DNA from: Sphaerochaeta associata | GTDB lineage: Bacteria; Spirochaetota; Spirochaetia; Sphaerochaetales; Sphaerochaetaceae | Assembly (NCBI RefSeq): GCF_022869165.1 | Contig: NZ_CP094929.1 | Coordinates: 2,108,001 to 2,172,000, forward strand | Direction: 5' to 3' | DNA: 64,000 nucleotides | In this document: positions 5,393 to 58,932 of the stretch, piece after piece | Layout: each line of letters begins with the position of its first letter | Position numbering within the stretch: position 1 is the stretch's first letter | Position numbers and translations under genes: made by a program | Notes under the pieces: generated by a model | What the model saw: the letters and a program-made list of their open reading frames with translations, nothing else | Told to the model about the DNA's origin: nothing | Databases searched by the model: none

Positions 5393-7891
5393 ATGCTTAC
5401 ACTCGATATCAACGGAGTCTGGAATCTCTCTCCTCTTTCGCAAGAGACCATTGCTCCTTTTACCAAATATTTTCACACTCATCCGCACATACCCTGCACC
5501 CTTCCGGGCGATATTCACTCCGCCTTATTGGAAAGCGGTGTCATCAACGATCCCTATGTAGGAACACAGGAACTGCAGATTCAGTGGGTCGGCCGCAGTG
5601 ATTGGGTGCTTGAGAGAACCTTCGAGGTACCGGAGCAGGCACTCTCGGATACGATGGCGGTTCTCACCCTTACCATGGCCGACACCATCATCAGTGTGTG
5701 GGTGAACGACAGGCAGGTCGGGTTTTGCGACAACCAGTTCAGACGATGGCGCTTTGATGTCAGCGAGGCGCTGACAAGCGGACAAAACACCATCAAGCTG
5801 GTCTTCACCAGTGCAGAGTCACATGCCATAGCGCTTGCTGAGAAGCTTCCCTACCCGATTCCTTACTCGGTTTATCCGGTTTCTGCAAAACATCGGAACC
5901 TGGTTCGAAAAACCCAATGCCACAGCGGCTGGGATTGGGGTCCCTGCATATTGAGTTTCGGCATTTACGAACCGATTCAACTCGCGTTCGTCGACGAAGG
6001 TCTTATCGAGAGCGTCACATGCGACACAAAATCTCGTCCTGATGACAGCTGGGACCTTATTGTCGAAGTGGTTTTCAATGCCCGGCGTGTGCAGAACCTT
6101 CAGTGCACTGCAGACTGTGCCGGCGCAACACAGCAGGGAAGTGTAGAAACCAAGGTCGGCCTGAATAAAATCACCTTTCATTTAGTGTGCAACAAGGTGC
6201 ACCGATGGTGGCCCAATGGAGAAGGCAAAGCGGTACTCTATCAGCTGGAGCTGGCCATAGGAGCTCAGAAGGTGACCAAACGCATCGGCTTCAGGACGCT
6301 TGAGGTCAAGACGGAGGAGGATGCCGAGGGTGGAAAAGGCATGGTGTTCTCGGTCAACGGAAGGGATATCTTCGCCAAGGGAGCCAATTGGATCCCCCTT
6401 GATGCGTTCATGGGAAGACTGACCAGAGAACGCTACGAACAACTGCTCCAGTATGTCATGGATGCGAATATGAACATGCTCCGCGTCTGGGGCGGCGGGT
6501 TGTATGAGAAAGAGGATTTCTACGAGCTGTGTGACGAGAAGGGCATCCTGCTGTGGCAGGACTGCATGTTCAGCTGCTCCATGTACCCTTCCGATCGGGC
6601 CTTCCTTGCGAGCGTTGAAGCGGAGCTACGGTATCAGGTGCCTCGTCTGCACGATCACCCCAGCCTTGCCCTGTGGTGCGGAAACAATGAGGATTTGGGA
6701 GCCATCAGCTGGTACGAGGAGTCGGCCAAGAACCGCGACCGCTATGTCATCGATTACGACCGGCTCAACGAAGGAGTCGTCGGCAAGGTCATCAAGGAAC
6801 TCGATCCCGGCCGCACTTGGTGGCCAAGCAGTCCCTCGGCCGGAGAAGGGGATTTCTCGGACAACTGGCACAGCGACAAGCGCGGGGATATGCACTTCTG
6901 GTCGGTCTGGCACGAGGGCAGAAGCTTTGAAGAGTACTACTCGATTAAGCCCCGGTTCGTCAGTGAGTTCGGCTACCAGAGTTTCCCCTCGCTGTCCACC
7001 GTCGCGACCTATGCCCAACCATCGATGTGGAACCTGACCAGCGTCGAGATGGAACACCATCAGAAGAATCCACGGGGAAACTCGATCATCATCGAGAACT
7101 TCAGCCGCTACTACCGTTTCCCCTCCAGCTTCGAGCAGATGCTCTACCTCAGCCAGGTGCAGCAGGCTGTCGCGATGAAGATGGCTATTGAATACTGGAG
7201 AACCACCATGCCCCATTGCATGGGAACGTTGTTCTGGCAACTCAATGACAACTGGCCGGTGGCCTCCTGGTCGTCCATCGACTATACCGGAAAGTGGAAA
7301 CTGCTTCACTATGCAGCAAAGCGCTTCTATGCACCCGCCCTTCCGATCGCCTATCAGAAGGAAGACGGCAAGGTCGAGGTCTACATCGTCAACGATGGGC
7401 CGAAGGCCATAGAGGATGCCAAACTCTCGGTGAAGTTCAGCACCTTTGATGCACAGAAACTCGGCAAGCAGGAGTATCGTCTTACCATCGAAGCAAAGAG
7501 CAGCACCCACATGTGCACCATCGATTTGAAGAAGAAGCCCAAGCTGGACCGAAACAAAACCTTCATCTATCTCAAGCTCAAAAGCGACGACCTGTACATG
7601 GAGAACTGCCTGCTTCTGGACAAGCCGAAAGCCTGCGAGCTTGTCGACCCCCAGCTGCAGATGCAGGTCGAGAAGGCAAGCGGAGGCTTTGCCGTTACAG
7701 TCAGCTGCACCTACCCTGCTTTCGAAGTAGCCCTCGATGCGCAGGACTTGAAGGGTGTGTTCAGCGACAACCTCTTTGCCATCCGGCCTACTGCGCAGAA
7801 GGTGGTCTTCTTCAAGACCCATGAGAAGGTGACACTCAAGCAGTTCAAGGAGAAGTTGAAGGTGTATGATTTGTACGGCAGCAGCAAATAA
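5393..7891 (+). CDS. Beta-mannosidase, glycoside hydrolase family 2
   Basis: This 832-aa exo-hydrolase releases beta-mannose from the non-reducing ends of mannan or N-glycan fragments. No signal peptide is seen, so it should act in the cytoplasm on imported oligosaccharides. It has an N-terminal sandwich domain, then FAKGANWIPLDAF and RVWGGGLYE, then the acid/base Glu in WCGNNED (about residue 431), then the nucleophile Glu in VSEFGYQSF (about residue 524). GNNE, rather than the GNE of beta-galactosidases, marks the mannosidase branch. ATG 5393 is chosen because GGAGG stands 7 bases upstream; an in-frame ATG at 5264 would lie ahead of the promoter. Exact substrate is inferred. Confidence 0.9.
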   Translation: MLTLDINGVWNLSPLSQETIAPFTKYFHTHPHIPCTLPGDIHSALLESGVINDPYVGTQELQIQWVGRSDWVLERTFEVPEQALSDTMAVLTLTMADTIISVWVNDRQVGFCDNQFRRWRFDVSEALTSGQNTIKLVFTSAESHAIALAEKLPYPIPYSVYPVSAKHRNLVRKTQCHSGWDWGPCILSFGIYEPIQLAFVDEGLIESVTCDTKSRPDDSWDLIVEVVFNARRVQNLQCTADCAGATQQGSVETKVGLNKITFHLVCNKVHRWWPNGEGKAVLYQLELAIGAQKVTKRIGFRTLEVKTEEDAEGGKGMVFSVNGRDIFAKGANWIPLDAFMGRLTRERYEQLLQYVMDANMNMLRVWGGGLYEKEDFYELCDEKGILLWQDCMFSCSMYPSDRAFLASVEAELRYQVPRLHDHPSLALWCGNNEDLGAISWYEESAKNRDRYVIDYDRLNEGVVGKVIKELDPGRTWWPSSPSAGEGDFSDNWHSDKRGDMHFWSVWHEGRSFEEYYSIKPRFVSEFGYQSFPSLSTVATYAQPSMWNLTSVEMEHHQKNPRGNSIIIENFSRYYRFPSSFEQMLYLSQVQQAVAMKMAIEYWRTTMPHCMGTLFWQLNDNWPVASWSSIDYTGKWKLLHYAAKRFYAPALPIAYQKEDGKVEVYIVNDGPKAIEDAKLSVKFSTFDAQKLGKQEYRLTIEAKSSTHMCTIDLKKKPKLDRNKTFIYLKLKSDDLYMENCLLLDKPKACELVDPQLQMQVEKASGGFAVTVSCTYPAFEVALDAQDLKGVFSDNLFAIRPTAQKVVFFKTHEKVTLKQFKEKLKVYDLYGSSK

Positions 7892-7895
7892 AAGC

Positions 7896-7931
7896 AAAAC
7901 ACCTGTCGGGCAACTTGCAGGTGTTTGTTTT
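7896..7931 (+). terminator. Intrinsic terminator after the beta-mannosidase gene
   Basis: AAACACCTG (7897-7905) pairs with CAGGTGTTT (7918-7926), followed by GTTTT. The insertion sequence landed a few bases downstream, leaving this terminator intact. Confidence 0.7.
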
Positions 7932-7934
7932 AAC

Positions 7935-7942
7935 ACGTATAA
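7935..7942. repeat. Target-site duplication, left copy
   Basis: ACGTATAA directly abuts the left inverted repeat and is repeated exactly at 9563-9570 after the right inverted repeat. Confidence 0.85.
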
Positions 7943-8031
7943 CTCAAAGTTCGCATACTGCTAGGCCCTAGAATTTTGGATGAAAAGCAAAGGAAAAATT
8001 TGGAGATTAATTAATAATTACATATAATATA

Positions 8032-8060
8032 TAGACATAAGCTCGAATATCTCGTATAAT
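8032..8060 (+). promoter_or_regulatory. Transposase promoter
   Basis: TAGACA (8032-8037), a 17-base spacer and a perfect TATAAT (8055-8060). Transcription would start near 8067, which excludes the in-frame ATG at 8063. Confidence 0.65.
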
Positions 8061-8095
8061 GGATGTACTATAAACCTATACAAGACAAGGAGCTT

Positions 8096-9544
8096 ATGCC
8101 TAACATGTTGAGGGATTTTACCAACAATACCGATGCCATTACAAGTCAAGTCAGTGTTTTTTCCCAGAGATTTAAAGTCGGAGCCATCCTTCGCCATTGT
8201 GGTGCACACAAACAAAAGGGCATAGAAGTCCGGAAGGTCTTCTCCTACCTGTCTACCCTGCTGTTCTGTGGAATATCCATGAACAGGGATCAAAAAACCC
8301 GCAAGTACGGGAACATGGTGAAAAAGGATACATGCCATCGGTTCCTCCAATCCATGAAGATGGACTGGAACCGGTTCCTTTCCCTGCTGGCCAAAGAGAT
8401 CATCGACAAGGATTTCCGCCCGATATGCCGCAACGATTGCAAGGGAGTGCAAAAGCCTTTTTTCCTGGTGGCCGATGACAGCAGCTACTGTCGCAACAGG
8501 TCCAAGAAGGTGGAGCTGAGCGCCAAGAACTGGGACCATGCCCTCAAACGCTACTACAAGGGATTCAGGATGCTTACCCTTGCCTGGACCGATGGCGTAT
8601 CGGTCCTTCCCGTATCTTTTTGCAATATGAGCACATGCGACGATACGAAGGTGCTCAGGGGATCCAAAGGGCTTACCGCCAAAGAAAAGGAAACCTTTGG
8701 CTTCAAGATACGCAAGCTGGCAAAACAGAAGATGAACGACACGCTGCTGGACCTTCTGGATGTCGCTGCAGCGGCGAATCTCCAGGCCCGGTACCTGCTG
8801 TGCGACAAGTGGTTCGCCAACCCCGTCACCATCTTCGCCATCAGAGACAAGGGATACGAGGTGATCTGCATGCTGAAAAACTCCTCCACCTATTATCTCT
8901 ACAAGGGAGAAAGGAGAAAGCTCAGCCAGATTTTCCGCATGTGCGCCAAGGAGGAGAGGCTCCAGCGCAAACTGGACCGAAAGGCCGGAAATGACGACTC
9001 GAAAGGCAGGAAATTCCTGTTCTCCGCTGCCATCTCACTGATCAACAAGGATGAGAAACCCAACCAAGAATCGAAAATCGTGTTCGTCAGGAACAGGAAC
9101 AAGAAGAGTGAATACCTGGCGATTCTCTGCACAGACAACAGCCTGTCAGAGGACCAGATAGTTGAATATTACTGCAGCCGATGGGGGATAGAAACAATGT
9201 TCCATACCTGCAAGTCATTCCTGCGCCTGCAAAAGAGCACCCAATCGCTGGATTATTCAGAAATCCATGCCAGCACCGCCATAGTCATGTTCCAATATGC
9301 GATGCTCTCCTGGCTGAACCGCCAGAACTCTGATGAAATAGGTTTCGGTGAACTGTTCTACCAACTCCTGGAAGAGGTCCAAGATACTGCTCTCTTTCAT
9401 GCCATTGAACTGGTGTTGACATTGTTCGTCGAGACCCTCGCTTCTGAATATGCCATGCCACCGGGAAAGCTCAATGAAGCGATGAACAAATTCCTCAAGC
9501 AACTGCCTGAGAGGCTGAAAACCTGTCTGGATCTAGCTGCTTAG
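8096..9544 (+). CDS. IS4-family DDE transposase
   Basis: A full-length, uninterrupted transposase of 482 aa. The catalytic triad is visible: first Asp in LVADDSSYC, second Asp in LLCDKWFANP, and Glu in YCSRWGIETMFHTCK. That last stretch is the IS4 signature Y-(2)-R-(3)-E-(6)-K. ATG 8096 follows AAGGAG at a short 3-base spacing; ATG 8105 (MLRDF) is the alternative, at 12 bases. The gene fills the element between the inverted repeats. The RNase H-like DDE core is interrupted by the beta-strand insertion usual in this family. Confidence 0.9.
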   Translation: MPNMLRDFTNNTDAITSQVSVFSQRFKVGAILRHCGAHKQKGIEVRKVFSYLSTLLFCGISMNRDQKTRKYGNMVKKDTCHRFLQSMKMDWNRFLSLLAKEIIDKDFRPICRNDCKGVQKPFFLVADDSSYCRNRSKKVELSAKNWDHALKRYYKGFRMLTLAWTDGVSVLPVSFCNMSTCDDTKVLRGSKGLTAKEKETFGFKIRKLAKQKMNDTLLDLLDVAAAANLQARYLLCDKWFANPVTIFAIRDKGYEVICMLKNSSTYYLYKGERRKLSQIFRMCAKEERLQRKLDRKAGNDDSKGRKFLFSAAISLINKDEKPNQESKIVFVRNRNKKSEYLAILCTDNSLSEDQIVEYYCSRWGIETMFHTCKSFLRLQKSTQSLDYSEIHASTAIVMFQYAMLSWLNRQNSDEIGFGELFYQLLEEVQDTALFHAIELVLTLFVETLASEYAMPPGKLNEAMNKFLKQLPERLKTCLDLAA

Positions 9545-45121: not shown

Positions 45122-45150
45122 TTGCACTTTTAAAAATACAATGGTAAAAT
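45122..45150 (+). promoter_or_regulatory. Promoter for the iron/cobalamin-type ABC operon
   Basis: TTGCAC (45122-45127), 17-base spacer ending in TGG, TAAAAT (45145-45150). The leader is about 25 bases and contains AAGGAG. Confidence 0.6.
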
Positions 45151-45181
45151 GCAACCATTCGCAACACCAAGGAGTCTTCCC

Positions 45182-49785: not shown

Positions 49786-49825
49786 TTGCTTTCCTTTGTG
49801 CAACATATTGCAACGTATTTTTCTT

Positions 49826-54692: not shown

Positions 54693-54722
54693 GAGCCGGG
54701 ATTTCTCCCGGCTCGTTTCATA
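54693..54722. terminator. Bidirectional terminator between the VOC gene and ygeW
   Basis: GAGCCGGG (54693-54700) pairs with CCCGGCTC (54707-54714). GTTTCAT follows on the plus strand; TTTTT follows within five bases on the minus strand. Confidence 0.7.
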
Positions 54723-54742: not shown

Positions 54743-55942
54743 TTATTTGATTCTCTTCACTGCAGATTCAAGCAGCTCATCCAGCTTTGCAGAGGGGTTC
54801 TGGAACTTGGAGAGGAAGATCATGGAAGCAATGATGTACGGCTTGAAACTGGCTTCCTTGTAGAGGGGCACCAGATAACGGTCGAACACAGAAGCCTCTA
54901 CCTCGCCTTCCTTGCAGGAAACACCGGTGATGTCGGCAGGCAGGCAGTGCATGTACAGGGCCTTTCCTTCCTTGGTCAACTTCATCAAGTCTTCAGTGCA
55001 GGTCCATTCCTTGAATTTGGCATTGTTGGCAAGACAGGTCTTCTCAAGAGCCTTCAGGGCATCCTGATCCCCATGCTCGACAATCTTGGTTCTCTCTTCC
55101 ATCACGGCAAAAGGAGCCCAGCTCTTCGGATAGACAATATCGGCATCCTTGAAAGCTTCAGCCATGGAATCGACACGCTTGTAGGAACCACCGCTCTTCT
55201 TTGCGTTCTCCTTGGCGACTTCCTCGATCTCAGGCATTACATTGTACCCCTCGGGGTGTGCAAGCACGACATCCATGCCAAAACGGGTGAACAGGCCGAT
55301 GATTCCCTGGGGAACGGAAAGCGGCTTGCCGTAGGAGGGGCTGTAAGCCCAGGTCATGGCAATCTTCTTGCCCTTGAGGTTCTCGACTCCACCGAAATGA
55401 TTGATGACATGCAGCATGTCTGCCATGCTCTGGGTCGGGTGATCGATATCGCACTGGAGGTTCACCAAGGTGGGTCTCTGCTCAAGAACGCCGTCGTCAT
55501 AACCATCCTGAACAGCCTCGGCAACAGTCTTCATGTAGGTATAGCCCTTGCCGATATACATATCGTCGCGGATACCGATGACGTCGGCCATAAAACTGAC
55601 CATATTGGCGGTCTCGCGAACCGTCTCACCGTGGGCGATCTGGCTGGTCTTCTCGTCAAGGTCCTGAACCTCGAGACCAAGGAGATTACAGGCACTGGCG
55701 AAACTGAAACGTGTTCTGGTGGAGTTATCGCGGAATACGGAGATTCCAAGGCCACTATCAAACACTTTGGTGGAAATGTTGTTCTCGCGCATGGCACGCA
55801 GAACTTCAGCTACCTGGAATACAGCAGCAATTTCGTCATCGGACTCCTTCCAAGTATGGAAAAAGTCATTGAGATACATGTTGTCGGTTTTGAGGGTCTT
55901 AAGCTCCTCAATCATCTTCTTAATAGTGGCTTTGTCCTTCAT
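54743..55942 (-). CDS. ygeW: YgeW-type knotted carbamoyltransferase
   Basis: This 399-aa member of the aspartate/ornithine transcarbamylase fold belongs to the knotted YgeW branch, with the carbamoyl-phosphate loop FRDNSTRTRFSFASA, the family insertion YIGKGYTYMKTVAEAVQDGYDDG, and HCLPAD near the C-terminus. Its acceptor is not settled; in E. coli it belongs to the purine-degradation/selenium-linked cluster, and its reverse action could capture carbamoyl phosphate for ATP. ATG 55942 has GGAGG 9 bases upstream. A strong terminator separates it from xdhD, so its expression may be attenuated. Confidence 0.92.
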   Translation of the reverse strand: MKDKATIKKMIEELKTLKTDNMYLNDFFHTWKESDDEIAAVFQVAEVLRAMRENNISTKVFDSGLGISVFRDNSTRTRFSFASACNLLGLEVQDLDEKTSQIAHGETVRETANMVSFMADVIGIRDDMYIGKGYTYMKTVAEAVQDGYDDGVLEQRPTLVNLQCDIDHPTQSMADMLHVINHFGGVENLKGKKIAMTWAYSPSYGKPLSVPQGIIGLFTRFGMDVVLAHPEGYNVMPEIEEVAKENAKKSGGSYKRVDSMAEAFKDADIVYPKSWAPFAVMEERTKIVEHGDQDALKALEKTCLANNAKFKEWTCTEDLMKLTKEGKALYMHCLPADITGVSCKEGEVEASVFDRYLVPLYKEASFKPYIIASMIFLSKFQNPSAKLDELLESAVKRIK

Positions 55943-55967
55943 GTTGTGGAACCTCCATTGGTTTTGT

Positions 55968-56020
55968 TCAAAAAAAAATCCAGACAATGGCACTATACCA
56001 TGACGGAGTGCCGTTGTCTA
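55968..56020 (-). terminator. Strong terminator or attenuator between xdhD and ygeW
   Basis: On the minus strand AGACAACGGCACT pairs with AGTGCCATTGTCT (56007-56019 with 55982-55994, one mismatch), followed by T9 at 55970-55978. No promoter is evident between it and ygeW, so ygeW probably depends on read-through. Confidence 0.85.
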
Positions 56021-56052
56021 GATTTAATGTTGCAGTTTGTTGCAAGAATCCT

Positions 56053-58932
56053 CTAGATTCTTCCCATCTCCTTCAGGATTTTCTCCGGTGTAAAGGGCCA
56101 GTTCCGCATCCAAACACCCACAGCATCATGGATGGCGATGGCAATGGCGGGAGCCGCCCCGTTGGTTGCAATCTCACTGATGGATTTGGCTCCGTAAGGG
56201 CCGACCTCATCATTGATGTCGATCAAGACTGCCTTGAAATCCTCCGGCTTCTCACTGATCATGGGTACCCCGTAATCGCTGAGCGTCGGATTGAGACAGA
56301 CACCGTTCTCATCCAGGATCATCTGCTCATACAGCGTATGACCGATGGATTTGAGAACAGCACCATACATCTGGCAGAGTGCAAGTTCCGGGTTGATCGG
56401 AGTGCCTGCATCCTGCAGTGCATAGAATTTCTGCACCTTTATTTGTCCGGTGCGTACATTCACGGCGACCTGGGCAAAGTGAGCACCGTAGGGGATGGAG
56501 TTGTGGTTTGTGGTGAAGGAAGCCTTACCCATAACCTGTCCACGGCCTGTACCGGTGAGTGCATCATGACTGAGCTTTGCGTAGCTGAGCGTCTTGCCGG
56601 TCTTGGTGCTGTACACCTCCCCGGGAGCTCGAAGCACCAAATCCTCGACGCTTTCCTGCATCTGATATGCAGCTTCATCAAGGAGATTGTTCTTCAAGTC
56701 CTGGGCGGCCTTGTAGGATGCTCCGCCGCTGAAGTAGGTCCCGCTGGAAGCATAGGCTCCGGTGTCGAACGTACAGCTGTCGGTATCACCGCTGGTGACG
56801 GTCACCTTGTCGAGGGGAACACAGAAGGCCTCGCTGATCATCTTTGCACTGATGGTATCCAAACCGGTTCCAAGGTCTGCACCACCGCTGAAAATCTGGA
56901 AGGTGCCATCGGTGAGCAGTTTCGCCCATGCGTTGGAGTGGTCGAGTCCGGGAAGTCCGCTTCCCTGCTGGATCATGGCAAATCCCTTGCCGATTTTCCA
57001 ATCAGGATCGTCGGAAGTCTCCTTTTTGCCCCATCCAATCATCTCGGCACCCTTGACCAGGGCTTCGTCAAGACCACACGAACCGACCGGCACGACATTG
57101 CCTTCCCTTCCCTCTCCGAGGCCCTTGAGAATTTCAAGCATATAGCCTGGTTCGACCTTGTTCTTCATCGCCATCTCGTAGTAATCAACACCCAATTGTT
57201 CGGCAAGCTCTGCCATGCATGTCATCAGCGCATAACTGCCCTTGGGAGCACCGTAGCCCTGATAGGCTCCGGTAGGAGCGATATTTGTATAGTAGGTAAT
57301 GACATCGAACTTCATGTTGTCGACTTTCAGCAGCGGCAGGGTCTTGGAGCATGCATTCATCGGCACGGTCAGGCAGTGGTTGCCGTAAGGACCGGTGTTG
57401 GCACGCACGTCCATATAGACGGCGGTAATCGTTCCATCCTTCTTGCCGCCCATCTTCACCGTCACACGCATAGGGTGACGGGTGGAGTTGGCGATGAACT
57501 CCTCTTCGCGGGTATTGCGATAGAGAACAGGCTTGCCCGTAATCCAAGTTGCATAGCCGACCAAATCCTCGACCAGGATATCCTGCTTGCTGCCGTATCC
57601 GCCACCGACACGCTCCTTGATGACGCGGATCTTGTTCTCGGGAATCTGGCATACCCATGCAACGATACGCCGCACGTGATAGGGAACCTGGGTGGAAGCA
57701 TGAAGCACCAACCTTCCACCGTCGATCTTGGCATAACAGATATGCGGCTCGAGGGGTGTACATTGGATTTGGCTGGTCTGATACGCCCGTTCAACAACCA
57801 CATCCGCTTCCTTGAATCCCTTCTCTACATCACCAATCTGGCCATGGGCGGCACTGGCGATGTTGCGCCTGATATCACTATGCAGGGGGAACTGATAAAT
57901 TACCTTCCCATCCCTTGGATCGGCTTTCTTGTTGTACTCGTCCAAATCCTTGGGAGCTCCTGCGCGATACTCGACAATGCCGTTGTGAATCAGGGGAGCG
58001 CCCTCTTCCATCGCCTCCTCAACGGTCAGCACGGGTTTGAGAACTTCATACTCCACCTTGATTGCATCGCGGGCGGCTCTGGCCTGCTCTTCGGTCTCGG
58101 CCACGATGGCCGCCACCCGGTCCCCGACGTGGCGGACCTTGCGGTTGAAAAGCCTGCGGTCGTGCGGACTTGGTTCAGGATTTCCCTGACCCGCCTGCAT
58201 GTAGAAGACATCAGGACAATTTTCGTGGGTGATGATAGAAACTACGCCATCCATCTTCAGAGCTTCACAGGTGTCGATCTTGGTGATGTATGCATGAGCA
58301 TAGGGGCTGCGCAGCAACACCATTGCATGATATCCGGGAAGCACCCTGTCCTCGACAAAACTCGGCTCGCCGGCTACCAGCTGCGGACCGTCCACCTTAG
58401 ATTTGGGTTTGCCGACATAGGTAAGCTCCTCTCGGAAGGATGGGGAGATTTCACTCTTGTAGGAACCGGTCTGCATCCGCTCGACAGCCAGCTTGACCGC
58501 CAGGTAGTAGTGTTCATACCCAGTATCGCGAATGAAAATTCCGCTGAGCACCTCATCGATCTGTGCCTTGGAAGGATTATCCACCCTCTCAAGCAACCAG
58601 GTGAGTAACAAGGCGGCTGCCGGTGCATTGTAGGCGCTCTGCACCACACCTGCATCGATCATGGCCTGTTGGACGATGTTGAGGTTCCTGCTCGTTCCCA
58701 GGCCTTCAGCGGTGCGGATGTCCGCCCCGTCTGCCTGTAGAGCCAGCATAAGGTTGGCATACACCGGGACATCATCAACAATGACGGTATCACTTCCTGC
58801 AAACCCCTCTCGGTCGTCGCTGTCGCGTACGCTGTTATACCCGAGGCGAACGAGGACCGAACGCAGTGACTCATTAACCTCACAGGTTGTTGTATGCTTT
58901 TTTCCGTTTACGGTAAAGACTACCTTGTTCAT
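56053..58932 (-). CDS. xdhD: Xanthine dehydrogenase family molybdenum hydroxylase (XdhD type) with cysteine-free ferredoxin-like N-domain
   Basis: 959 aa. Residues 1-150 are the [2Fe-2S] ferredoxin-like domain, but the ligand Cys are gone: VRDSDDREGFAGSDTV and QSAYNAPA stand where C-motifs should be, and only Cys17 remains. Residues 180 onward are the molybdopterin-binding subunit: RERVGGGYGSKQDI, YQGYGAPKGSYALM, GGADLGTGLDT and GAKSISEIATNGAAPA, with the catalytic Glu of the last motif. The E. coli XdhD has the same feature as I recall. A selenium-dependent purine hydroxylase is likely (hypoxanthine or xanthine). It starts with GGGAGG and overlaps ygfM as ATGA. Confidence 0.9.
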   Translation of the reverse strand: MNKVVFTVNGKKHTTTCEVNESLRSVLVRLGYNSVRDSDDREGFAGSDTVIVDDVPVYANLMLALQADGADIRTAEGLGTSRNLNIVQQAMIDAGVVQSAYNAPAAALLLTWLLERVDNPSKAQIDEVLSGIFIRDTGYEHYYLAVKLAVERMQTGSYKSEISPSFREELTYVGKPKSKVDGPQLVAGEPSFVEDRVLPGYHAMVLLRSPYAHAYITKIDTCEALKMDGVVSIITHENCPDVFYMQAGQGNPEPSPHDRRLFNRKVRHVGDRVAAIVAETEEQARAARDAIKVEYEVLKPVLTVEEAMEEGAPLIHNGIVEYRAGAPKDLDEYNKKADPRDGKVIYQFPLHSDIRRNIASAAHGQIGDVEKGFKEADVVVERAYQTSQIQCTPLEPHICYAKIDGGRLVLHASTQVPYHVRRIVAWVCQIPENKIRVIKERVGGGYGSKQDILVEDLVGYATWITGKPVLYRNTREEEFIANSTRHPMRVTVKMGGKKDGTITAVYMDVRANTGPYGNHCLTVPMNACSKTLPLLKVDNMKFDVITYYTNIAPTGAYQGYGAPKGSYALMTCMAELAEQLGVDYYEMAMKNKVEPGYMLEILKGLGEGREGNVVPVGSCGLDEALVKGAEMIGWGKKETSDDPDWKIGKGFAMIQQGSGLPGLDHSNAWAKLLTDGTFQIFSGGADLGTGLDTISAKMISEAFCVPLDKVTVTSGDTDSCTFDTGAYASSGTYFSGGASYKAAQDLKNNLLDEAAYQMQESVEDLVLRAPGEVYSTKTGKTLSYAKLSHDALTGTGRGQVMGKASFTTNHNSIPYGAHFAQVAVNVRTGQIKVQKFYALQDAGTPINPELALCQMYGAVLKSIGHTLYEQMILDENGVCLNPTLSDYGVPMISEKPEDFKAVLIDINDEVGPYGAKSISEIATNGAAPAIAIAIHDAVGVWMRNWPFTPEKILKEMGRI

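Follow-up and report, generated by a model that had tools for sequence, protein, structure and literature searches.

The window analysed here is a 64,000-nucleotide stretch of the Sphaerochaeta associata genome (contig NZ_CP094929.1, positions 2,108,001 to 2,172,000), and the junction of interest lies on its minus strand, between xdhD and ygeW. Curated protein models assign names to an xdhD-type subunit, YgeW, SsnA, YgeY, an 8-oxoguanine deaminase and YgfK (TIGR03315) in this neighbourhood, and the genes so named are those of the reductive uric acid pathway. By eye, ygfK shares its strand with ssnA and xdhD and lies upstream of both. The genome also has a carbamate kinase gene, which lies away from the xdhD-ygeW cluster. 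At locus L042, beyond the two PALP-type genes that adjoin ygfK, there is an ORF (7511-8623) that we take to be transposase-like. On the minus strand, 110 nt separate the xdhD stop codon from the ygeW start (55942). The features that concern us are listed below in window coordinates.

56053..58932, minus strand: gene for the xdhD-type Mo/Fe-S subunit (TIGR03313), directly upstream of ygeW, with its stop codon at 56053-56055
56028..56044, minus strand: direct repeat TGCAACA-AAC-TGCAACA, a probable regulator site; it lies 8 nt past the xdhD stop codon, with 7 nt between it and the -35 downstream
56015..56020, minus strand: -35 hexamer TAGACA, within the 5' arm of the hairpin
55992..56000, minus strand: extended -10, TGG-TATAGT, located in the loop and at the beginning of the 3' arm
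55982..56019, minus strand: terminator-type hairpin of the RNA arriving from xdhD, a 13-bp stem with one mismatch and a 12-nt loop
55985, minus strand: where the ygeW transcript is predicted to begin, 7 nt past the -10
55970..55978, minus strand: T9 tract after the stem, directly downstream of the hairpin
55952..55956, minus strand: GGAGG, the probable ribosome binding site of ygeW, read from the sequence
54743..55942, minus strand: ygeW, knotted carbamoyltransferase (TIGR03316), by match to a curated model
54693..54714, minus strand: terminator-like hairpin after ygeW, from the consensus terminator scan
49799..49815, plus strand: second repeat copy of the window, with 2 mismatches, flanked by a possible promoter and the adenine deaminase start (minus strand)

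The stem and the T9 tract between xdhD and ygeW are as the original prediction described them. The plus-strand sequences of the arms are AGACAATGGCACT (55982-55994) and AGTGCCGTTGTCT (56007-56019), with the hairpin itself read on the minus strand. As a 44-nt segment the hairpin folds at -22.0 kcal/mol, and 34 of the 25584 sliding 44-nt windows taken from both strands of the 64 kb are at least as stable. The surrounding 121 nt, folded as the plus strand, gave a z of -3.86, while the 73 nt that follow the repeat on the transcribed strand gave a z of -5.5, with none of 200 shuffles folding as well. The hairpin is absent from the output of the consensus terminator scan, whose limit of 3-8 nt on loop length is the probable reason. 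A stable stem-loop lies directly downstream of xdhD and a U tract directly after the stem, as in an intrinsic terminator, and the hairpin probably ends the xdhD gene group by a predicted termination event.

The stem covaries within the genus (g1). Across 23 congeners (18 distinct rows in the alignment), 89.3% of pair cells are paired and both sides have changed in 7 of the 15 stem pairs. Cells with double changes number 16, compared with 5.2 in shuffles, none of the 500 reaching 16, and with 3-6 in the slid control, and a consensus fold predicted on the same alignment recovers the same stem. The 9 nt past the stem contain 5-8 T in all 23 congeners. The bases GACA of the -35 and their pairing partners TGTC are invariant among the 23, a pattern that would fit polymerase fixing GACA and pairing fixing TGTC.

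The original prediction also held that no promoter lies between the terminator and ygeW. This holds for 55942-55970 in our scan, but a promoter-like site at 56020-55992 overlaps the stem. The site consists of TAGACA (56020-56015), a 17-nt spacer and TATAGT (55997-55992) with TGG before the -10, in agreement with the definition of a sigma-70 extended -10 promoter (a TGn-TATAAT-like -10, a spacer of 16-18 nt and a -35). It resembles other promoters of this class in its TGn-TATAGT, spacer and TAGACA, and differs from the usual ones in that both hexamers also belong to a covarying RNA hairpin in genus g1. With 10 of 12 matches and TG before the -10, it has the top count in the 14 kb scanned. It also ties for the top score (listed second) among 3645 candidates on both strands of the window, under a score of our own that adds hexamer matches, TG and spacer. 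The 14-kb scan overall returned 10 sites against a shuffle mean of 9.6, which is no excess, so the case for the ygeW promoter rests on conservation and not on the scan.

Initiation at 55985 would give a predicted 43-nt leader without the stem. Since the predicted start lies inside the 3' arm, the ygeW RNA would lack the 5' arm and could not form the hairpin. RNA coming from xdhD should therefore be able to form it and ygeW RNA should not. At the level of sequence, terminator and promoter share bases: the -35 is in the 5' arm and the -10 (55992-55997) is in the loop and 3' arm. The 3' arm could also pair with ygeW codons (pair I3). The idea of slippage at an initial T run was dropped because the T9 itself varies among relatives and is not conserved.

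Conservation was assessed in 90 upstream regions from the 124 genomes with a ygeW match (30 given loci and 60 picked by us, leaving out truncated genes and two dozen or so more), counts across related genomes not being independent. The genus is represented by 23 of its 26 genomes; G097 and G104 have no ygeW match and ygeW is truncated in G101. The repeat reached at least 13 of 16 positions in 76 of the 90 regions, one of the 76 (G085) being a chance match within coding sequence in a genome whose real repeat is upstream of ygeY. Among these 76 loci, the best -10 is preceded by TG in 75, the spacer is 17 nt in 69, and the -35 is located 5-8 nt from the repeat in 70; the mean promoter score is 11.2, compared with 7.5 (sd 1.0) for shuffled sequence. 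The -35 of G028 lies by eye 18 nt from the repeat, outside the 0-15 nt scan, and our script misplaced the -10 of G102 in the congener leader analysis. Fourteen of the 90 regions fell below the 13-of-16 threshold. The repeat is degenerate in G057 (12 of 16), is found upstream of ygeY and not of ygeW in G024 and G120, and has a reverse-orientation copy approximately 1.5 kb upstream of ygeW in G133. Repeat and promoter persist before ygeW where xdhD is not directly upstream. None of 49 loci outside the spirochetes reaches 12 of 16 for a repeat before ygeW, and the system therefore looks lineage-bound.

These features are likely, in our judgement, to represent an overlap of terminator and promoter between two co-directional units, with the promoter probably driven by an activator through the repeat. 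Polymerase arriving from xdhD would transcribe both arms, form the hairpin with its U tract and stop. Judging from the geometry, polymerase that begins at the extended -10 promoter of ygeW would start in the 3' arm, and its RNA, without the 5' arm, would escape termination. A protein bound to TGCAACA-N3-YGCAACA just upstream of the -35 probably activates the ygeW promoter. The best candidate for it is a WYL-type regulator that most genomes of the order encode and that has this repeat at the promoter of its own gene. The original prediction had named an unseen promoter overlapping the stem as one of its alternatives, and this is the option that the conserved extended -10 promoter supports. Its suggestion that carbamoyltransferase is uncoupled from hydroxylase levels may be half right at most. 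With an apparent promoter of its own and a terminator-like hairpin of its own (54714-54693), ygeW can differ in dosage from xdhD, but its repeat is common to the ygfK promoter.

To follow the repeat beyond ygeW, we used the consensus TGCAACA-N3-YGCAACA. Allowing at most 1 mismatch, it occurs 98 times in the 26 genus genomes, compared with once for the backward pattern, and 25 of the 26 genomes have it. In the S. associata genome, a search allowing at most 2 mismatches yielded 9 places (two of which overlap) against 3 for the backward control. These include ygeW, carbamate kinase/GntR, ygfK, adenine deaminase and xdhA, while the remaining places are near SDR-/phosphate-dikinase-like genes, within an ORF and ahead of a binding-protein-like gene; some of these names are our assumption from the gene sequences. 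The only other perfect copy found in this genome is between carbamate kinase and a GntR/FCD gene. These two genes diverge around the copy (L033 1442-1619), which covers the likely -35 region of carbamate kinase.

The position of the repeat differs between genes. By eye, the repeat at ygfK is reversed and some 7 nt away from the -35, and that of a diaminopropionate-lyase-like gene in G098 is similarly placed. As the ygeW and ygfK promoters carry the same repeat approximately 7 nt from the -35, one regulator should govern both. At adenine deaminase and at the gene of the candidate regulator itself, the repeat is past the -10, in a repressor position, so a single simple activator role does not cover all sites. 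A copy similar to the repressor-like one at adenine deaminase is found in G093 (L083).

We also inspected 40 chosen repeat loci from 14 genomes of other genera. A recognised pathway gene adjoins the repeat in 28 of them: carbamate kinase in 12, ygfK in 8, an NCS2-type purine permease in 3 (two of these matches being only 31-32% identical to the query), adenine deaminase in 2, a ygeY-type gene in 2 and xdhA in 1. The other 12 have none, a count that includes three weak hits (24-26% identity).

Two further kinds of site were seen. A weaker copy of the repeat (window 45150-45166) sits just before the start of a gene that presumably encodes an ABC-type binding protein, and a relative precedes a similar gene in G091 (L077); the copy may link a transporter to the regulon. 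A repeat-like site between genes that we take to be SDR-type and pyruvate-phosphate-dikinase-like is present in several congeners (L035, L074, L075, L076) and has no evident purine tie.

The candidate regulator (gene at G000:C1:106067-107032, minus strand) is a protein of 322 aa with HTH_11 and WCX domains above cut-off. It thus has the N-terminal HTH and WYL/WCX regions of this family, and WYL structures lead its fold search. The WYL Pfam model itself is not among its domain matches, and no NCBIfam model matched. Its predicted model, which is of moderate quality (mean pLDDT 67), is closest to DriD and PafBC (Foldseek E 3.6e-10 and 2.9e-9), with a loose overlap over full-length chains (query-normalised TM-score of at most 0.36, rmsd of at least 13). 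A profile comparison pairs residues 242-314 with WYL/DriD-type chains (E 1e-4). The WYL-type activators DriD and PafBC serve DNA-damage responses, unlike the candidate described here, which is linked to purine breakdown.

Of the order's 139 genomes, 125 have a match to the candidate at E 1e-30 or better, always a single one apart from two fragments in G125. In its own promoter, the repeat lies just past the -10 in all 29 loci with upstream sequence (23 congeners and 6 others). Best scores there are 13-15 of 16, and 455 of 580 random windows from the same loci have a best score of 9 or 10; 20 of the 580 reach at least 13, any windows that overlap the real site being included in this count. Among 24 chosen genomes, all 19 with the regulator gene have repeats and 4 of the 5 without it have none. 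G120 has 6 repeats and no regulator match at E 1e-30. In three genomes that are 68-82% complete (G095, G097 and G102) repeats are present and no regulator was found, and in G104 (81% complete) the regulator is present and no repeat was found. The WYL-type protein is the best candidate for the regulator of a uric acid degradation regulon, and its binding to the repeat is predicted.

It is possible, if doubtful, that the repeat is bound by another factor, such as the GntR/FCD protein, a PucR-type HTH_30 protein or some other. The sole other perfect copy in the S. associata genome adjoins the GntR/FCD gene, and our survey covered the GntR/FCD and HTH_30 families. Against this, the GntR/FCD protein beside carbamate kinase has matches in just 10 of 139 genomes at E 1e-30, and the PucR/HTH_30 protein in 55 of 139 at E 1e-5, compared with repeats in 25 of the 26 genus genomes. 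Both were rejected as order-wide regulators.

The distribution of the hairpin was compared with the room available after xdhD. With the end of xdhD about 10 nt or less from the repeat, the promoter region has a fold z of -3 or lower in 29 of the 30 junctions, made up of 23 of 23 in genus g1 (gaps of 5-10 nt) and 6 of 7 in g7, g10, g13 and g14. None of the 10 promoter regions with the xdhD end 31-95 nt from the repeat folds at this threshold, nor does any of the 36 in which xdhD is not directly upstream. For 7 of the 10 roomy junctions, the segment running from the final 20 nt of xdhD up to the repeat folds well (at most 9 of 200 shuffles as good), and in the other 3 (G021, G022 and G124) no well-folding separate hairpin was detected against shuffles. 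Genus g13 has both forms, nested in G078, G079 and G081 and separate in G080. Two more tight junctions, both xdhD-ygeY, have no strong hairpin: G085 (gap 0) and G120 (gap 13; an A+T-rich one only). With these two added, the totals for tight junctions are 29 of 32 overall and 6 of 9 outside g1, compared with 0 of 10 roomy ones. The Fisher and Mann-Whitney values for the junction comparison count related genomes as if they were independent. A universal rule by which every tight junction has a nested hairpin is failed by G085, G120 and G023, the last being weak (z -2.1) despite its tight junction. Since the fold follows the spacing of xdhD, the hairpin tends to track the need to end the xdhD RNA and, where there is no room, is squeezed into the ygeW promoter. 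The sequences of the hairpins are unrelated between several genera.

By eye, the hairpins outside genus g1 have no clear U tract, which suggests that they may stabilise 3' ends or act with Rho. Extended to the junction studied here, this would make the hairpin a 3'-end stabiliser or a Rho-associated end of the xdhD mRNA and not an intrinsic terminator. In another spirochete, Borrelia burgdorferi, ends that are likely Rho-mediated are more numerous than predicted intrinsic terminators, according to the relevant passages of PMC10319736. We nevertheless regard such a role as unlikely here, as the T-rich tail is kept in every one of the 23 congeners.

The dyad could alternatively be a DNA operator, on which a dimeric repressor would bind both arms, across the -35 and -10, and control ygeW. 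The arms do flank the -10, a typical repressor position. Arm sequences, however, change with compensation and differ between genera (the latter by eye), which is not expected of an operator, and the presence of the hairpin tracks xdhD spacing and not the presence of ygeW. This makes an operator very improbable. Attenuation, in which the sole source of YgeW would be xdhD transcripts that get past the terminator by forming another pairing, as in the regulated read-through first proposed, has the hairpin and T9 close behind xdhD in its favour but can hardly be upheld: a conserved promoter whose RNA should start past the 5' arm overlaps the stem, repeat and promoter are kept where xdhD is not directly upstream, 55600-56400 has no match to an Rfam family at E up to 1, and an anti-terminator pairing is not consistent across the 23 congeners, in whose minimum-energy folds a varying 0-9 of the 13 nucleotides of the 5' arm pair upstream.

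There is also a broader proposal that we hold about as readily as we doubt it. A WYL-type protein would be the master regulator of the anaerobic breakdown of purines and uric acid in Sphaerochaetales, activating ygeW, ygfK and the diaminopropionate-lyase-like gene through the repeat beside the -35 and repressing adenine deaminase and its own gene from sites beyond the promoter. Where xdhD and ygeW are crowded together, evolution would repeatedly have built a new terminator inside the regulated promoter.

Terminator-promoter overlap, including that of tufB-secE in Salmonella, was reportedly the subject of a 2019 study by Brandis, Cao and Hughes. The sections of PMC7055797 on that subject describe inter-operon overlaps of this kind in Salmonella, for tufB-secE as well as for other pairs. 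As in tufB-secE, so far as those sections describe it, the terminator of one operon here shares sequence with the promoter of the next co-directional operon. In contrast to tufB-secE, where the same sections place ancient translation and RNA-polymerase operons, the junction here is catabolic, with a covarying stem, unrelated hairpins in several genera and a conserved repeat at the downstream promoter. A phrase search for inter-operon terminator-promoter overlaps returned only PMC7055797, a result that says little on the wider literature. Because the Salmonella overlaps are already described, the ygeW junction is a further case of a known kind, to which a regulon proposal that is new is added.

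The reductive uric acid gene cluster is treated in PMC12507026, passages of which state that E. coli YgeW cleaves the ureido group with phosphate to give carbamoyl phosphate, that carbamate kinase belongs to the cluster, and that a Crp-binding site lies between ygeV and ygeW in E. coli. As in the cluster described in those passages, S. associata has xdhD, ygfK, ssnA, ygeY and ygeW, with carbamate kinase elsewhere in the genome. The word "regulator" is absent from the main text of PMC12507026. Unlike the cluster as presented in the passages cited, the genes here are tied by a shared repeat to a candidate regulator. A search of the open-licence literature found no paper on such a regulator in spirochetes.

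If this reading of the junction is right, a single stretch of 50 bases could serve as the end of one gene group and the start of the next, and the new RNA would not terminate itself. Covariation and the natural contrast of tight and roomy junctions support the reading. The repeat and the WYL-type protein, for their part, provide a regulon that can be tested and a candidate for the regulator of uric acid breakdown in anaerobes.
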